A stretch of 64,000 bases of DNA from Cetobacterium somerae. Lineage in GTDB: Bacteria; Fusobacteriota; Fusobacteriia; Fusobacteriales; Fusobacteriaceae. The position numbers were made by a program, and so were the translations under genes. The stretch is taken from positions 62,001 to 126,000 of the forward strand of contig NZ_CP092520.1 of the NCBI RefSeq assembly GCF_022430525.1, in the 5' to 3' direction. Positions 57,411 to 64,000 of the stretch are shown in pieces (position 1 is the first letter of the stretch; each line of letters opens with the position of its first letter). The notes beneath the pieces were generated by a model, which was not told where the DNA came from, made no database searches, and saw only the letters and a list, made by a program, of their open reading frames with translations.

Positions 57411-57922
57411 TTGGAAAAAGAATTTTTATTATCAACTGTAACAGTAGTTTTCATATTAATCAATCTTTTCATAGATCTAATAAGAGCTAATGTTGGAGAT
57501 AGATATGTGCTTGAAAAAATGAAAGAACTTGATGTAAATATAGGTGGAGAGCAGTCAGGATATATAATATTATCAGACTTTGGAACAACAGGAGATGGAG
57601 TACTAACATCTGTTAAACTGGTAGAAGCTATAAGAGATTCAGGAAAATCATTAGATGAACTGGTAGGAGAAATAGTAGATTGCCACAACTATTAATAAAT
57701 GTTAGAGTAGATAATAGTAAAAAAAATCTATGGAATAAAAATGAAGCGATAGTTAAGTTTATACAAGAAAAAGAGTTAGAGATGGCAGGTTTAGGAAGAG
57801 TATTAGTAAGAACATCTGGAACAGAACCAATAGTAAGAGTAATGGTTGAAGGAAAAGAGATGGCAACAGTGAACAGAGTAGCAAAAGAGATTGCTGAAGT
57901 TGTTGAAAAAGAGTTAGTTTAA
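57411..57922 (+). pseudogene. glmM: glmM 3' fragment, frameshifted
   Basis: Two overlapping frames encode the C-terminal third of phosphoglucosamine mutase. The first gives LIRANVGDRYVLEKMKEL, GGEQSGYIIL and TTGDGVLTSVKLVEAIRDSG. The second gives LLINVRVDNSKKNLW, GRVLVRTSGTEPIVRVMVEG and a normal C-terminus. At 57681-57684 the sequence reads TGCC where a WPQ codon series (TGGCCACAA) is expected, so one G is missing and the frame breaks. The first about 60 bases are further degraded and the N-terminal two thirds are absent. It is a relic, presumably of a duplicated or displaced gene, since GlmM is essential. Confidence 0.88.
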
Positions 57923-57946: not shown

Positions 57947-57973
57947 AGGTAGAGTAAAAAGCTCTACCTTTTT
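57947..57973 (+). terminator. Intrinsic terminator after the glmM relic
   Basis: AGGTAGAG and CTCTACCT arms with a seven-base loop and a T-run. A near copy occurs at 63766-63791 after rdrB. Confidence 0.85.
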
Positions 57974-58014
57974 AACTACAAAGTAAAAATATAAAATAAA
58001 AGGAGAGACAATAA

Positions 58015-61000
58015 ATGAGCAATACAAAAATAGGAGCAAGAAATTTGTCAGATAAAGAGTTAGAAGTTTTGTTGCCAAATTGGGAAGATATATTTTCAGA
58101 GATTGTTAAAATAAGAGATAGCTCGATAAGAAAAGATGAAGAAGACTCAATATTAAAAGAGGAACCTGAGTTTGAGAAACATCATAATAATGTATTTTCA
58201 ATATTAGGAGAAAGAGGAGCAGGAAAAACGTCTGTTCAATTAAGTTTGAAATATAGACTGATGGAGCACTATAAGAATAAAGAAGAATATAAGAATGATA
58301 CTATTTTACAGCTGATAGTTCCACAAGATATGGAGGGAAATTCAAGTGCAATAGGGTGGATAATTGCTTATTTTTCAAATTTAGTTGAGAAGATAGAAGA
58401 GGATTTTAAAGAAAATAGGCAACTGTTTTATTATGAAAAGAATTGTAAAATTAATCCAGTATTAATGAAATTTAAAGAGTTAAAAAAATCTTTTTTTATA
58501 AGAAGTGAAAGTTATAAAAATAGTATAAATAGTGATAACTCTATAACAGAGTACATAGAAAGAAATGGAGAGGTAATAAAAGAGGATATAAATCTTTCTA
58601 AAAAATTTAAAGATTTTATAGATGAGTATGTAAAGTATAAAAAAAACGTAAATAAAAACAATGCTTCCGAGCCATTAATACATATATTTTTTGATGACGT
58701 AGATATAAGTAATAAAAAATGTTTAATGGTATTAGAAACAATAATGAGATATCTTTCTCATGCAAATATAGTTGTTTTTGTAGCAGGAGATTATTCAACA
58801 TTTAAAGAGACAATAACACTAAAATATTTAAAAGATGATGGATTGTTGTATAAAGACTTATTGAATGAAACTTTTGAAAAATGTACTGCTTTAGAAGTTC
58901 GACAGACATTAGCGTATGATTATTTGAAAAAAGTACTATCGCCAGCTTTAAGGTATGAACTAAAAAAATATAATTTAGATGAAAAGAAAGACTTTAAATA
59001 TGGTAAGCTAGATGACAATAAATTTAAATTAAAAAACTTAATTGAAGAAAAATTAGGAAATAATTTTAATAATATCTATTATGATCTTTTAGATTCAAAA
59101 CCTAGAGGACTTATGAATATATACTATTTTTTAGAGAGTGCTAAAAAATATGAAGAGTTAGATGAGAAGAATAAAAATCTTTTTATAAAAAGAATATTAA
59201 ATATTATAATTGATTCATCTAGTATATTGAATATAGAAAAAGAAAGCATAGAGGAGTTAATAGAGATTCAAGATAAAAAAGTAATAGTTAATTTTGAAAA
59301 ATTTAGTTTTAAAGATTTCTCTGAACAAAATTTATTGAAACTGTATTTAATGGTTTTTATAGATGAATTAATAAATGAGAATCAAACTATATATGAAAAA
59401 GAGATTTTAAACTATTTTGTAGAATATTTTAAAACGAATTTAAACCTAGCTTCGATATCATACAGTTCTAAAGAGATGTATGATATATTCTTAACTAAGA
59501 GTGATTTAGTAAAAAATATTGAATTGTTTCATCTCATAAGAAAAGAGCTAGGGAATAGAAAAATAGAGGAGAGTGATTTTATAAGTGCTTACGTTCAAAG
59601 TTTAACTTTAATTTTACAAGGGCAATCTATTCCTGATTATTTTTGTGAAAATCTAATTTATAATAAAGAGAAGATTAAAAGAATTATTGAAAAACTTCAG
59701 AATAGTAATAAGATAGAGGAAAATCAAGTTAGAAAAGAGATGGAATTTATATTTCAAAATTTGTGTTTAGTAGATGGGATTAGAGATATTATAGAGGAAC
59801 CTTTAAATATTAATTTGGATGAATGGAAAAAAATATGTGGTGGAATAAAGAAAAAAAATAACTACGAACTACTTTCAGAAAAAAGCTCTCGTTGCTTAGA
59901 GAGTAATTTTAAAGAGTTTGGTTTAGGTAGTATGAATATAATGGATACTAGTCTAATTGAAAAGTTGGAAAATATGAGAAAAGATGTAAGAGATATACTA
60001 AATACTGCAGAACTTTTAGAGTTTGAATTAGATAATAAATTACAGGAAATAATTGAGTTAGAAGATGAGTGGAAAAATATATTTTTAAGAAAAGATATAA
60101 ATATTGATGAACAAAGAGAAAAAAGAACTAGATTAATAAATGATTTAAAACAAGAATATTCGAATAATTTGGAAATTGGAGATTTTGTTGAGTTAAGTAA
60201 GATAATTCGAGGTGGATTGTTCAGAGAGTTTAAAATTAATACTTTAAAGTTAGATGAAGAGTTACAAAATTTAGGGATAATTTTAGAGAGTAATTCAATG
60301 GAGGCAGTAGAAAAACAGATAAAAAAGATCGAGAAAAGTATACAAAATGAAGAGGGTAATTTACAAAGAGTGATGAAAATACGTGAAATAGTAAATAAAC
60401 TTGATTTTCTTAAAATCCATTATATGGTCTTAAATGAAACTTCAAAATGTAATGAAATAGATGTAAAAGCAGAATTAAATTCAAGTTTTCTTAAAATTAG
60501 AGAGAATTATATTGAAATATACGAAAAAGAGCTGAATCACTATTTATATGAGTCACTGTTTAAAAGCAAACCATTAAAAGAGATATCACAGATGTTAGAT
60601 GATATAGATGAAAGAATTTTTGAATTGGAAAATGGACTTATTTTAAGTAAAGAAATCTTGTCAATAAAAGATGAGGTAATTTTAAATATTATAAAAGAGA
60701 GTGCATATTCAAGATTACTTAATTTAAATAACTATATAAATCCAATGAAGTTCTTAAAGTTATCTAAAGATAGTATTAAGAATATAAGAGGACTTTCTTT
60801 AAATCAAGGAAAAGATGTAATAAATAAAGAGTTAATTTATGTACAAAATTATATATTAAAAAATATAAATATGAGTAGGGAACAATTTATGAATATAGAG
60901 TATGAAGAGTTTGTATCAGATTCTAATTATATAAATTTAAAAGTTTATTTAAACTTATTTAAGATGCTGCTAAAAGAAAAGATGGAGAAAAGTAAAATAA

Positions 61001-61098
61001 AAATAGCTGGGTCTAGAGAAGAGAAGTTAAAGAGTTTAGAAAAGAGTTTGAAGACTAAAACAAAATTAAAAAACTTATTTAGTGAGAGTAAAAAATGA
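58015..61098 (+). CDS. rdrA: RADAR system ATPase RdrA
   Basis: A 1027-residue P-loop ATPase. Walker A is GERGAGKTS (Lys71), preceded by an acidic N-terminal tail, and Walker B is HIFFDDVDIS (Asp227-Asp228). A large helical C-terminal part (about 600-1000) with charged coiled-coil-like stretches follows. The immediate partner gene, overlapping by ATGA, is a very large adenosine deaminase, which is the defining RADAR pair. In described systems RdrA forms ring-shaped oligomers that associate with RdrB shells and are needed for defence when phage infects. The assignment rests on this pairing, size and motifs; RdrA alone would be called only an NTPase. Confidence 0.9.
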   Translation: MSNTKIGARNLSDKELEVLLPNWEDIFSEIVKIRDSSIRKDEEDSILKEEPEFEKHHNNVFSILGERGAGKTSVQLSLKYRLMEHYKNKEEYKNDTILQLIVPQDMEGNSSAIGWIIAYFSNLVEKIEEDFKENRQLFYYEKNCKINPVLMKFKELKKSFFIRSESYKNSINSDNSITEYIERNGEVIKEDINLSKKFKDFIDEYVKYKKNVNKNNASEPLIHIFFDDVDISNKKCLMVLETIMRYLSHANIVVFVAGDYSTFKETITLKYLKDDGLLYKDLLNETFEKCTALEVRQTLAYDYLKKVLSPALRYELKKYNLDEKKDFKYGKLDDNKFKLKNLIEEKLGNNFNNIYYDLLDSKPRGLMNIYYFLESAKKYEELDEKNKNLFIKRILNIIIDSSSILNIEKESIEELIEIQDKKVIVNFEKFSFKDFSEQNLLKLYLMVFIDELINENQTIYEKEILNYFVEYFKTNLNLASISYSSKEMYDIFLTKSDLVKNIELFHLIRKELGNRKIEESDFISAYVQSLTLILQGQSIPDYFCENLIYNKEKIKRIIEKLQNSNKIEENQVRKEMEFIFQNLCLVDGIRDIIEEPLNINLDEWKKICGGIKKKNNYELLSEKSSRCLESNFKEFGLGSMNIMDTSLIEKLENMRKDVRDILNTAELLEFELDNKLQEIIELEDEWKNIFLRKDINIDEQREKRTRLINDLKQEYSNNLEIGDFVELSKIIRGGLFREFKINTLKLDEELQNLGIILESNSMEAVEKQIKKIEKSIQNEEGNLQRVMKIREIVNKLDFLKIHYMVLNETSKCNEIDVKAELNSSFLKIRENYIEIYEKELNHYLYESLFKSKPLKEISQMLDDIDERIFELENGLILSKEILSIKDEVILNIIKESAYSRLLNLNNYINPMKFLKLSKDSIKNIRGLSLNQGKDVINKELIYVQNYILKNINMSREQFMNIEYEEFVSDSNYINLKVYLNLFKMLLKEKMEKSKIKIAGSREEKLKSLEKSLKTKTKLKNLFSESKK

Positions 61099-63743
61099 AA
61101 ATAGATACAAAATATATAGATAGAACATTGAACACAATACTATCTCCTTTTAGAAATATAGAGTTTTTTGAAAATGATATCTTTAAAAATTCCAAGAATA
61201 TTAGCGAAGTTTTAAATGAATTATATCCTATATTAAATAAAGAAATAGAAATTTTAAATTTAGATGAATTAGAATTAACATTTAAAAAATTTTATGGATT
61301 ATCTTTTCAAAAGTTAAAAGATAATCCGGAGAAGAGATATTTACAACTTTTAAAATCTTTTAGTGAAAGTTTTTTAACTCATAGAGATGGTGAAATAACT
61401 TTTAAATATTGGAATAGTGAAAAAGACATTTTTAAAGCTTTTGACAGTGTGGAAAAAGTTTTAATTTGGAATAGTTTAACACGAATAATTCCAACAGATA
61501 TAATTGGAGTTTTATTTTTAAGGGCAAATAAACTAAATGATTTAGAAAACTTGAAAAACTATTCATCTATAATAAAATTAGAGGATAAGCAGTTAAATTC
61601 AATACTAAAAAAAGGTATCTCTGAAACTCATCTTCATGCATCTGCTTCAACAGATTTTTATAACTCTTGGAAAAATTTAATGAGATTAAAAAATAGAAAT
61701 GAAAGTTTTTATGAAGATAGAATACTGGGAAAATTTGAAAAGTTAGAGAAATTTAAAGTTTTAGCAGCTATATATAGAATTTTATTAGCGGATTTTATAT
61801 GTAAAAGAGATGAAGATGAGTTAGATTTCAAAAGATATCTAAAAGAGAAAAGAAAGGACATATATTATAAATTAGAATACAAAGAGATAAAAGATGGAAA
61901 TACTCAAGAGTTGGAAGAAATTTTTCATAAGTTAAAAGAGAATATAATTTCTAATGGAAATTTTACGGTTGAAGAGTTTGAAAAGCTAAAAAATGGTGAT
62001 ATTTTAAGATATATTTGGAAAGAGGAAGATATAGAAGAGTTAAAAACAAATGAAGAAAATATTTTTTTAATGAAGTGTTTAAACTATTTAGATTTAGGTG
62101 AAAATAAAGATAAAATATTTTTAGAATGTTTCTTTGATTATTTAAAAGTAAAAAATGTTTATTTTAAAATTATGGTTCAAGGAAATAAAGTTAAAGGTTT
62201 AGATATTTTTACTAATTATTTTAAAAGGTCAACAAAAATAGGTGCTGATGAAGATGAATATTGGTGGGAGCATAGAATTAGAACTCAATTTAAAGATTCT
62301 AATTTAAAAAAAGTTGAATTTAGAATTTCACCAAGTACATCATTTGACATTATGAAAAAAGAGTTATTAGCTATTTTTCAGAGTTATAAAAAAGTTTTAG
62401 AAAGTGAGTTTTTTGACGGAGATATAGATTTTCCAAAAATAGGTATAATATACCATTTTATTAAAAGTAGAGATCAATCAAAACTTCAAAAATGTTGGTA
62501 TAAAAAGTGTAAAAATAAGTCAGAGCACGGATTATTAAATTTTAATAAAAATATAATTCAATATGAAAAAGAAAAAAAGAATATTTTAGAATTAAGAAAA
62601 ATTAGAAATCTATCAAAATATATTGTAGGAGTAGATGGTGCAAGCATTGAGAACAATACAGAGCCTTGGGTATTTACATCTATTTATGATGGGATAAGAG
62701 ATAGTGATAATGGTTATAGATGTGATAGTGGACGAGGAATAAAAAGTTTAGGTTTTTCTTTTCATGCAGGAGAGGATTTTAGACATATTATAACAGGCAT
62801 AAGAAGAATAGATGAAACTATGAAATATTTTAAATATCATTCAGGTGATAGAATAGGTCATGGGATAGCCTTAGGTGTAGATATGAAAAGATGGTGTGAA
62901 CATCATCCAGTAATAATACTTCCTAGAGTAGAATATTTTGAAAATTTAATTTGGATGTGGGGAAAAAGTCGAGAACGTATCTTAGAAATGAATCTTACTT
63001 ATTTGGAGAAATTAATTTTTGACACAGGAAAAGATATATATGGGAAAATGGATGGGATAACAATATTTAATTTATGGGAGATGTATTGTAAGAAGTTTGA
63101 AAAATTTCATGTAGAAGATATTAGCACAAAAGGTTATAGTCCATGTTTAATATCAGTAGATTCAAATATTGAAGAGTTAGGAAGAGAGAGGTTTGAAAGA
63201 GTTTTGTGCTTTAAAGATAAAAATCAAATATGGACACTAGAAAGTCTATTAAAAGCATATCACTGTGAAAAATATTTGTGTAGAATGAATGAACCTATTC
63301 AAATAAGAATAAAAAAAGAGGAGATAGAGATATTTGAAAAGCTTCAAAAATTAGTTTTGAAAAAAATATCTGAAGATGGGATAATAATAGAAACTAATCC
63401 AACGTCAAATATGGCAATAGGGGAGTTAAAAAGTATTTTTGAACACTATATAACTAATTTAAATAGATTAGAGTATGAAAAAGATGATGAAAATTATAAA
63501 TATTTAATGGTTAGTATAAATAGTGATGATCCATCTGTTTTTAATTCTATATTAAGTAATGAGTTTGCTTATATATATTATTCTTTGATAAATGAGGGGT
63601 ATCCAAAAGAGGTAGTTTTGAGATGGATAGATAAGGTAAGAGAGTATGGTATGAATAGTAGTTTTATAGATGATAAAAAGCAAAATTTAGATAAAACTAT
63701 AATTGAGTTATGCGAAATAATAGAGACTTTAAATAAATATTAA
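61095..63743 (+). CDS. rdrB: RADAR system adenosine deaminase RdrB
   Basis: An 882-residue metal-dependent deaminase. The adenosine deaminase motifs occur in order: HLHAS (His179, His181), HAGE (His557, Glu560), RIGHG (His589), NPTSN and SDDP (Asp811, Asp812). About 375 residues separate the first two motifs, a large insertion far beyond metabolic adenosine deaminases and as expected for RdrB. All zinc and catalytic residues are kept, so the enzyme should be active. Described RdrB enzymes convert adenosine to inosine in RNA or in ATP/dATP pools during phage infection. It is translated with rdrA through a four-base overlap. Confidence 0.93.
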   Translation: MKIDTKYIDRTLNTILSPFRNIEFFENDIFKNSKNISEVLNELYPILNKEIEILNLDELELTFKKFYGLSFQKLKDNPEKRYLQLLKSFSESFLTHRDGEITFKYWNSEKDIFKAFDSVEKVLIWNSLTRIIPTDIIGVLFLRANKLNDLENLKNYSSIIKLEDKQLNSILKKGISETHLHASASTDFYNSWKNLMRLKNRNESFYEDRILGKFEKLEKFKVLAAIYRILLADFICKRDEDELDFKRYLKEKRKDIYYKLEYKEIKDGNTQELEEIFHKLKENIISNGNFTVEEFEKLKNGDILRYIWKEEDIEELKTNEENIFLMKCLNYLDLGENKDKIFLECFFDYLKVKNVYFKIMVQGNKVKGLDIFTNYFKRSTKIGADEDEYWWEHRIRTQFKDSNLKKVEFRISPSTSFDIMKKELLAIFQSYKKVLESEFFDGDIDFPKIGIIYHFIKSRDQSKLQKCWYKKCKNKSEHGLLNFNKNIIQYEKEKKNILELRKIRNLSKYIVGVDGASIENNTEPWVFTSIYDGIRDSDNGYRCDSGRGIKSLGFSFHAGEDFRHIITGIRRIDETMKYFKYHSGDRIGHGIALGVDMKRWCEHHPVIILPRVEYFENLIWMWGKSRERILEMNLTYLEKLIFDTGKDIYGKMDGITIFNLWEMYCKKFEKFHVEDISTKGYSPCLISVDSNIEELGRERFERVLCFKDKNQIWTLESLLKAYHCEKYLCRMNEPIQIRIKKEEIEIFEKLQKLVLKKISEDGIIIETNPTSNMAIGELKSIFEHYITNLNRLEYEKDDENYKYLMVSINSDDPSVFNSILSNEFAYIYYSLINEGYPKEVVLRWIDKVREYGMNSSFIDDKKQNLDKTIIELCEIIETLNKY

Positions 63744-63765
63744 TAAATTATAAAATTATAGTTAG

Positions 63766-63791
63766 AGGTAGAGTTTGATGCTCTGCCTTTT
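63766..63791 (+). terminator. Intrinsic terminator of the RADAR operon
   Basis: AGGTAGAG and CTCTGCCT arms (one G-T pair), seven-base loop, short T-run. It closely resembles the terminator at 57947-57973 just upstream of rdrA. Confidence 0.75.
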
Positions 63792-63815: not shown

Positions 63816-64000
63816 ATGAAAAAAGAGAAAGTTTTTAAATTTTTATCTATAGCTGTAATGCTTTCTATATTTTGGTTTTCTCATCAAGATGCCAAAGAGT
63901 CAGCTAGACAATCAACATATGTAAAAAAACAAGTAAATAAAGTTATAGGTAAAGGAATAAAATATAATATTAGAAAAAATGCTCACTTTTTTATATATAT
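63816..64000 (+). CDS. VanZ-like membrane protein, 3'-truncated by window end
   Basis: The frame opens with ATG behind AAAGGAGATGAG and runs off the end of the window. The first 61 residues hold one hydrophobic segment, then FWFSHQDAKESARQS and NIRKNAHFFIYI. The pattern of a first helix, (F)SSQ-like loop and R-K-x-A-H-F is typical of VanZ-family proteins. It lies after the RADAR terminator and is probably a resident gene marking the edge of the defence insertion rather than an accessory RADAR subunit, but the rest of the protein is not visible. Confidence 0.7.
   Translation, partial: MKKEKVFKFLSIAVMLSIFWFSHQDAKESARQSTYVKKQVNKVIGKGIKYNIRKNAHFFIY

Follow-up and report, generated by a model that had tools for sequence, protein, structure and literature searches.

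A probable two-gene RADAR system of Cetobacterium somerae in a divergent, Bacillota-centred clade

Two overlapping genes of Cetobacterium somerae very probably constitute a complete, divergent two-gene RADAR system, with rdrA first and rdrB second. They lie in the window, by which we mean the whole stretch of 64,000 nucleotides that was analysed. The first-pass annotation, made from the letters alone, had placed open reading frames of 1027 and 882 residues at 58015-61098 and 61095-63743 and had called them RADAR. Both frames are where it put them, joined by an ATGA overlap at 61095-61098, and its reading of the pair is upheld by the profiles and fold of RdrB and by the N-terminal profile, the clade profile and the fold of RdrA. 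The motifs it listed (P-loop, HxH, HAGE, RIGHG and SDDP) are all there, the P-loop as GERGAGKTS at RdrA residues 65-73 and HxH as HLH at RdrB residues 179-181.

Results

The gene pair

The features of the region are as follows.

57471..57922, + strand: glmM (phosphoglucosamine mutase) 3′ remnant in two frames (Pfam PGM_PMM_III, PGM_PMM_IV)
57947..57969, + strand: terminator-like hairpin, AGGTAGAG-TAAAAAG-CTCTACCT and a T tail, between the glmM remnant and rdrA (hairpin search)
58000..58005, + strand: AAGGAG ribosome-binding site, 9 bases 5′ of the rdrA start (sequence)
58015..61098, + strand: rdrA, divergent AAA+ ATPase assigned to RADAR, 1027 aa (ORF, profiles, fold)
58207..58233, + strand: Walker A GERGAGKTS, RdrA residues 65-73 (clade alignment)
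58426..58539, + strand: RdrA helical insertion, residues 138-175 (profile alignment to 8hr7, the crown of E. coli RdrA)
58693..58704, + strand: Walker B DDVD, RdrA residues 227-230, within FFDDVD 225-230 (alignment)
59104..59106, + strand: RdrA R364, candidate sensor 2 arginine (invariant in 31 clade members)
61095..63743, + strand: rdrB, divergent adenosine deaminase assigned to RADAR, 882 aa (ORF, profiles, fold)
61629..61637, + strand: RdrB HLH, residues 179-181, zinc ligands H179 and H181 (invariant in 32)
62763..62774, + strand: RdrB HAGE, residues 557-560, zinc ligand H557 and catalytic E560 (invariant in 32)
62859..62861, + strand: RdrB zinc ligand H589 in GDRIGHG, RIGHG being 586-590 (invariant in 32)
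63525..63533, + strand: RdrB active-site DDP, D811-P813, SDDP being 810-813 (clade alignment)
63816..64000, + strand: vanZ-like host gene running beyond the window, not part of RADAR (Pfam VanZ)

The host assembly comprises 2.97 Mb in 7 contigs and is 98.8% complete. Contamination was rejected as a source of the pair, since it lies within a 705-kb contig and both of its flanks are syntenic with the genus. The GC content of the pair is 24%, that of the adjacent polysaccharide genes 20-25% and the window mean 28.8%.

The catalytic residues of both proteins are intact. RdrB retains the zinc histidine tetrad H179, H181, H557 and H589 and the catalytic glutamate E560 (E. coli H152, H154, H498, H530 and E501), and in the clade profile H557/E560 align with E. 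coli H498/E501 and H589 with H530. Within the active-site DDP, D811 and P813 are invariant in 32/32 clade members and D812 is found in 30 of the 32. In the alignment of 31 RdrA clade members, G65, R67, G68, G70, K71 and S73 of Walker A and D227, D228 and D230 of Walker B are invariant. The sensors of the AAA+ domain were assigned from the same kind of alignment, by which we infer that R364 is the equivalent of E. coli R377.

RdrB is recognised by sequence and by fold

The second protein matched the PADLOC RdrB profile with an E of 1.6e-37 and the NCBIfam RdrB model with 6e-53, as against 1e-7 for the metabolic ADA profile; Pfam A_deaminase barely attains its cut-off. The NCBIfam score is 180 bits, below the model cut-off of 800. 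When the PDB was searched with the single sequence, E. coli RdrB (8fnw) was the only structure found (E 9e-23), and the clade profile reached the same structure at E 5.6e-55, the best metabolic deaminase following at 8e-7.

An AlphaFold2 model built on the clade alignment (pLDDT 83.8, pTM 0.88) has the predicted fold of an RdrB, insertions included. Its top Foldseek match is E. coli RdrB (E 8e-24), and VIA-align superposes the two over 689 residues with a Z of 35.0 and an rmsd of 3.5, whereas other deaminases (ADAs, Cad1) align through the core alone, over 309-386 residues with Z 25-29.5. Since only the E. coli RdrB alignment extends over those 689 residues, the insertions that distinguish RdrB are present. 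RdrB thus has neither the best profile match nor the compact single domain of a metabolic adenosine or AMP deaminase. By profile and by fold, the deaminase falls with RdrB and the ATPase with RdrA, the two points on which the first-pass annotation had staked its reading.

Differences from the E. coli protein are nonetheless large: the two RdrBs are 15-18% identical by structure and 882 versus about 799 aa long. In E. coli RdrB, the three consecutive glutamates E595-E597 are required at the three-fold axis, where they hold the trimer interface (PMC9994260); this interface is known from the E. coli protein and is not established as family-defining. The window RdrB has no counterpart, the segment aligning to G-K-M-D-G, and the position is poorly conserved and mostly non-acidic in the clade. 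Because these equivalents are not conserved, shell assembly through the same contacts is doubtful.

RdrA is recognised through its N-terminal half

At full length, RdrA matched no RdrA model in PADLOC or NCBIfam, and as a single sequence it gave nothing useful against PADLOC, NCBIfam, Pfam or the PDB; a tblastn search of plasmids with it also gave no match. Residues 1-295 alone match PADLOC RdrA at E 1.5e-9. A clade profile of 31 members returned solved RdrA structures as its first three matches, E. coli RdrA at E 1e-10 and Streptococcus suis RdrA at 1.4e-4. Curated profiles recover RdrB, albeit under the NCBIfam cut-off, and RdrA through its N-terminal part only. With RdrA unmatched at full length, automated annotation would be liable to overlook the pair.

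The RdrA model is good for about residues 1-470; the C-terminal half is predicted to be helical, with pLDDT mostly below 50. Residues 3-476 have the predicted fold of an RdrA ATPase, with Z 22.6 to E. coli RdrA and 19.3 to S. suis RdrA (379 residues), the next fold family being Cdc6/ORC at Z 12.8. The clade-profile alignment to E. coli RdrA spans the segment that forms the crown, which in E. coli docks onto RdrB (PMC9994260). In our model the putative crown segment is helical, but the clade does not conserve the full set of E. coli crown residues K150, E151 and R162.

The two halves of RdrA have diverged to very different degrees. Compared with its nearest relative, that of the Peptostreptococcaceae locus L015, the protein is 46% identical over residues 1-470 and 17% over 471-1027. 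A C-terminal lobe serving as a variable sensor has been proposed for RdrA (PMC9994260), and this divergence is in line with that idea.

The overall plan is that of the E. coli RADAR (8fnv, 8fnt, 8fnw, 8hr7): adjacent genes with the AAA+ ATPase first and the deaminase second, the zinc tetrad and glutamate, the RdrB insertions, and an RdrA ATPase half with a putative crown-like insertion. Unlike the E. coli RdrA of 947 aa, the window protein has 1027 aa and a C-terminal half without detectable similarity. The RADAR of S. suis SS993 (RdrA 8fnu) resembles it in the RdrA ATPase half. As S. suis RdrA was a weaker match by sequence than the E. coli protein, its membership in the clade of the window is unlikely despite its Bacillota host.

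The pair sits at the end of a surface-polysaccharide locus

The gene debris reported beside the pair is real: 57471-57922 holds the 3′ part of glmM in two frames. This remnant is 97% identical to an intact glmM elsewhere in the same genome (G000:C1:624766, contig 1), which makes the debris a partial duplicate of a gene that the host retains in working form. It is also 86% identical to the intact glmM-galU-vanZ locus of a congener, G003. There the order is flippase, acyltransferase, intact glmM, galU and vanZ (flippase, acyltransferase and galU named by eye from the sequence). In the window, only the 3′ remnant of glmM is left, galU is missing, and the position of galU before vanZ is taken by RADAR. 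The G003 vanZ-like copy, which follows galU, is 72% identical. VanZ was considered as a RADAR accessory and rejected, since G003 has it too and yielded neither rdrA nor rdrB.

The setting is not the defence island that had been assumed: the pair lies where a surface-polysaccharide locus ends, and the ten genes flanking it have no defence match in PADLOC. The remark that SLATT and Csx27 accessories are missing was correct for the same ten genes.

The region has 4 terminator-like hairpin sites, as against a mean of 0.7 in shuffles. Similar GGTAGAG..CTCT(A/G)CC hairpins flank the pair, at 57947-57969 and, as GGTAGAG...CTCTGCC 3′ of rdrB, at 63763-63790; the congener without RADAR has a single copy, after galU.

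The clade is centred on Bacillota

A scan of genome contigs yielded 80 RdrB loci. In an 86-row RdrB tree, the window is the sole non-Bacillota row of a 37-row clade (SH-aLRT 100), and in a bootstrapped 42-row tree it pairs with L015 at 100/99, the two RdrBs being 46% identical. In most loci of the clade whose contig carries both genes, rdrA and rdrB are adjacent and in the same order. The divergence noted in the first-pass annotation is more than AT-rich drift of a fusobacterial type; it is inherited, the system belonging to a Bacillota-centred RADAR clade.

Within Fusobacteriota, rdrB is present in 4 of 98 genomes, including that of the window, and the other three belong elsewhere. These RADARs (L006, L007, L079) share the phylum and, where both genes are on the contig, the rdrA-rdrB order, but their RdrBs are 25-30% identical to that of the window and fall in another clade, itself well supported, that includes Bacteroidota rows. 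One of them adjoins recQ. Neither rdrA nor rdrB was found in any other sampled genome of the genus, and blastn of an rdrB segment against E. coli genomes gave no match. Because the window is the only row of its clade from outside Bacillota, horizontal acquisition from that phylum is likely and is the simplest reading of the trees; the donors were apparently Clostridia-type bacteria.

Genes beside RADAR in relatives

Two close relatives have a gene fusing HAM1 and SIR2_2 domains directly upstream of rdrA and in the same direction (L015:1301-3010, +; L017:1977-3380, +), that of L017 ending 6 bases from rdrA. Pfam gives the HAM1 domains E values of 6e-35 and 9e-34 and the SIR2_2 domains 1.9e-16 and 4e-27, in that order of loci. 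The HAM1 part has VEHT in place of the catalytic DDSG of host RdgB, and the SIR2 part retains TTNY and KLHGD. Loss of DDSG with the SIR2 motifs kept is what would be expected of a sensor-NADase. Among 391 genomes of the class of L015, a gene spanning HAM1 and SIR2 occurs only in the genome of L015 itself. With the fusion so rare, chance is an unlikely explanation for finding it twice next to a system that is itself rare. Solo SIR2 genes (L118-L120, 49-51% identical to the SIR2 half) were considered as Kongming and set aside, with no HAM1 or deaminase neighbour within 1.5 kb.

In Kongming, the dITP signal acts through KomB and the NADase KomC, and NAD+ is depleted (PMC12948488, PMC12774641). 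Given this and the production of dITP by RADAR, we propose that (d)ITP may also be a signal in the RADARs of L015 and L017. The analysis suggests that the fusion may be a dITP-sensing NADase coupled to RADAR in a Kongming-like manner. We found no report in the open-access literature of RADAR (d)ITP as a signal. Kongming (KomA-KomB-KomC) resembles these systems in a deaminase chemistry leading to dITP and in the HAM1 and SIR2 domains beside two close relatives of the window. It differs in that the window has no HAM1-SIR2 gene and that RADAR RdrB deaminates triphosphates directly. Neither Kongming partner, HAM1 (KomB) or SIR2-like (KomC), flanks the window pair, and its own genome has RdgB only and no SIR2 match.

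Other neighbours vary among loci. Csx27 and SLATT are reportedly RADAR accessories, from the work of Gao and colleagues in 2020. Membrane genes of Csx27-like type lie next to one or the other RADAR gene in L028, L041 and L049 and, weakly, in L040; PMC7699616 mentions Csx27 and SLATT alongside RADAR. At L144:6288-8996, L114:1013-17083, L042:2896-10276 (G098:C54), a RADAR pair lies downstream of a type III RAMP operon with two TIGR03986 proteins (E 1e-94, 1e-88) and Csx10-like and Csx7-like proteins. Also present are a NARF domain, a 902-aa protein, Cas10-like by eye, without an NCBIfam match, and a second RdrA-like ATPase of 1381 aa, again by eye. No CRISPR array was present near the RAMP genes of L042 in the stretches read. 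G098, a Peptostreptococcaceae MAG, has three different RdrB genes (L111, L112, L113). At the third of them (L116), rdrA is accompanied by a gene for a membrane protein, and the locus adjoins a cluster resembling Dnd phosphorothioation (by eye).

Oceanirhabdus sp. W0125-5 carries two RADAR pairs of different branches in tandem (L019:4132-16696). On a Rhizobium leguminosarum plasmid (L009:5131-10867), the genes after RADAR encode an adenylosuccinate synthetase-family protein and a DUF7002 protein, a possible link to the handling of inosine nucleotides. The rdrA of L017 (3387-6794) and the rdrB of L018 (6986-9838) are each in two ORFs, through a frameshift, a programmed event or a sequencing error.

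Discussion

Knowledge of the family, and in particular the mechanism of known RADAR including dITP production (PMC9994260), suggests how the window pair would work. Family traits include a heptamer-dodecamer assembly, turnover of (d)ATP to (d)ITP and restriction of phages. RdrA, an AAA+ ATPase, would be expected to assemble as a ring, with its long, fast-evolving C-terminal half, predicted to be helical, as the probable sensor of a phage trigger. Its crown-like insertion should dock the ring onto RdrB, a zinc adenosine deaminase that carries RADAR-type insertions and would be expected to form a shell. On infection, RdrB should turn ATP and dATP into ITP and dITP, so that the nucleotide pool is poisoned and the phage is stopped. 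With the active sites fully conserved, the interface glutamates without counterpart and the crown residues not kept as a set, the chemistry is expected to be the same and the assembly contacts would probably differ. The pair was probably acquired from Bacillota, and it takes the place of galU where a surface-polysaccharide cluster ends.

It might be argued that the second gene encodes a metabolic adenosine or AMP deaminase, or a Cad1-like one, which happens to neighbour an unrelated STAND or AAA+ ATPase. The catalytic core has the common ADA fold, with Z values of 25-29.5 to Cad1 and ADAs, and Pfam A_deaminase is just at its cut-off. Cad1, a CARF-adenosine deaminase of type III CRISPR, shares the ADA core and is reported to turn ATP into ITP (PMC11645235); unlike the window protein, it has a CARF sensor in place of RdrA and no RADAR insertions. 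RdrB profiles outscore ADA profiles by far, the E. coli RdrB match covers twice the residues of other deaminases, insertions included, the neighbouring ATPase has the RdrA fold, and the pair recurs in about 30 Bacillota loci. The metabolic explanation is already contradicted by the evidence in hand and retains hardly any credibility. A decaying, non-functional remnant is also very improbable. Although a broken glmM copy adjoins the pair and the C-terminal half of RdrA is highly divergent, neither frame is truncated, a good ribosome-binding site and a translational overlap are in place, and every catalytic residue is intact.

Somewhat better placed, though still unlikely, is a RADAR whose main output is signalling, the (d)ITP made by RdrB activating a separate effector that is encoded elsewhere or was lost here. 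The fusion genes directly 5′ of rdrA in L015 and L017, their motifs as for a sensor-NADase and the depletion of NAD+ by Kongming speak for it. Against this, the genome of the window has an ordinary RdgB only, with the SIR2 half unmatched, and the fusion occurs in just two loci. We prefer a complete RADAR that would act by poisoning nucleotides. A broader and tentative idea, which we hold to be possible but would not bet on, is that this branch is a modular platform in which (d)ITP is both messenger and poison: HAM1-SIR2 would read it in L015 and L017, the RAMP genes of L042 may supply the trigger, and the window would hold a minimal form without an effector.

Current models do poorly on the large RADAR clade to which the window pair is a well-supported addition: they miss RdrA at full length and score RdrB far under the NCBIfam cut-off. 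RADAR has likely spread from Bacillota into Fusobacteriota. The active sites, the overall fold of RdrB and the ATPase half of RdrA are conserved in RADAR; the trimer-interface glutamates and the C-terminal half of RdrA are not, which bears on the question of what triggers RADAR. With a HAM1-SIR2 gene beside two close relatives, the idea that dITP may serve as a signal in RADAR becomes testable.
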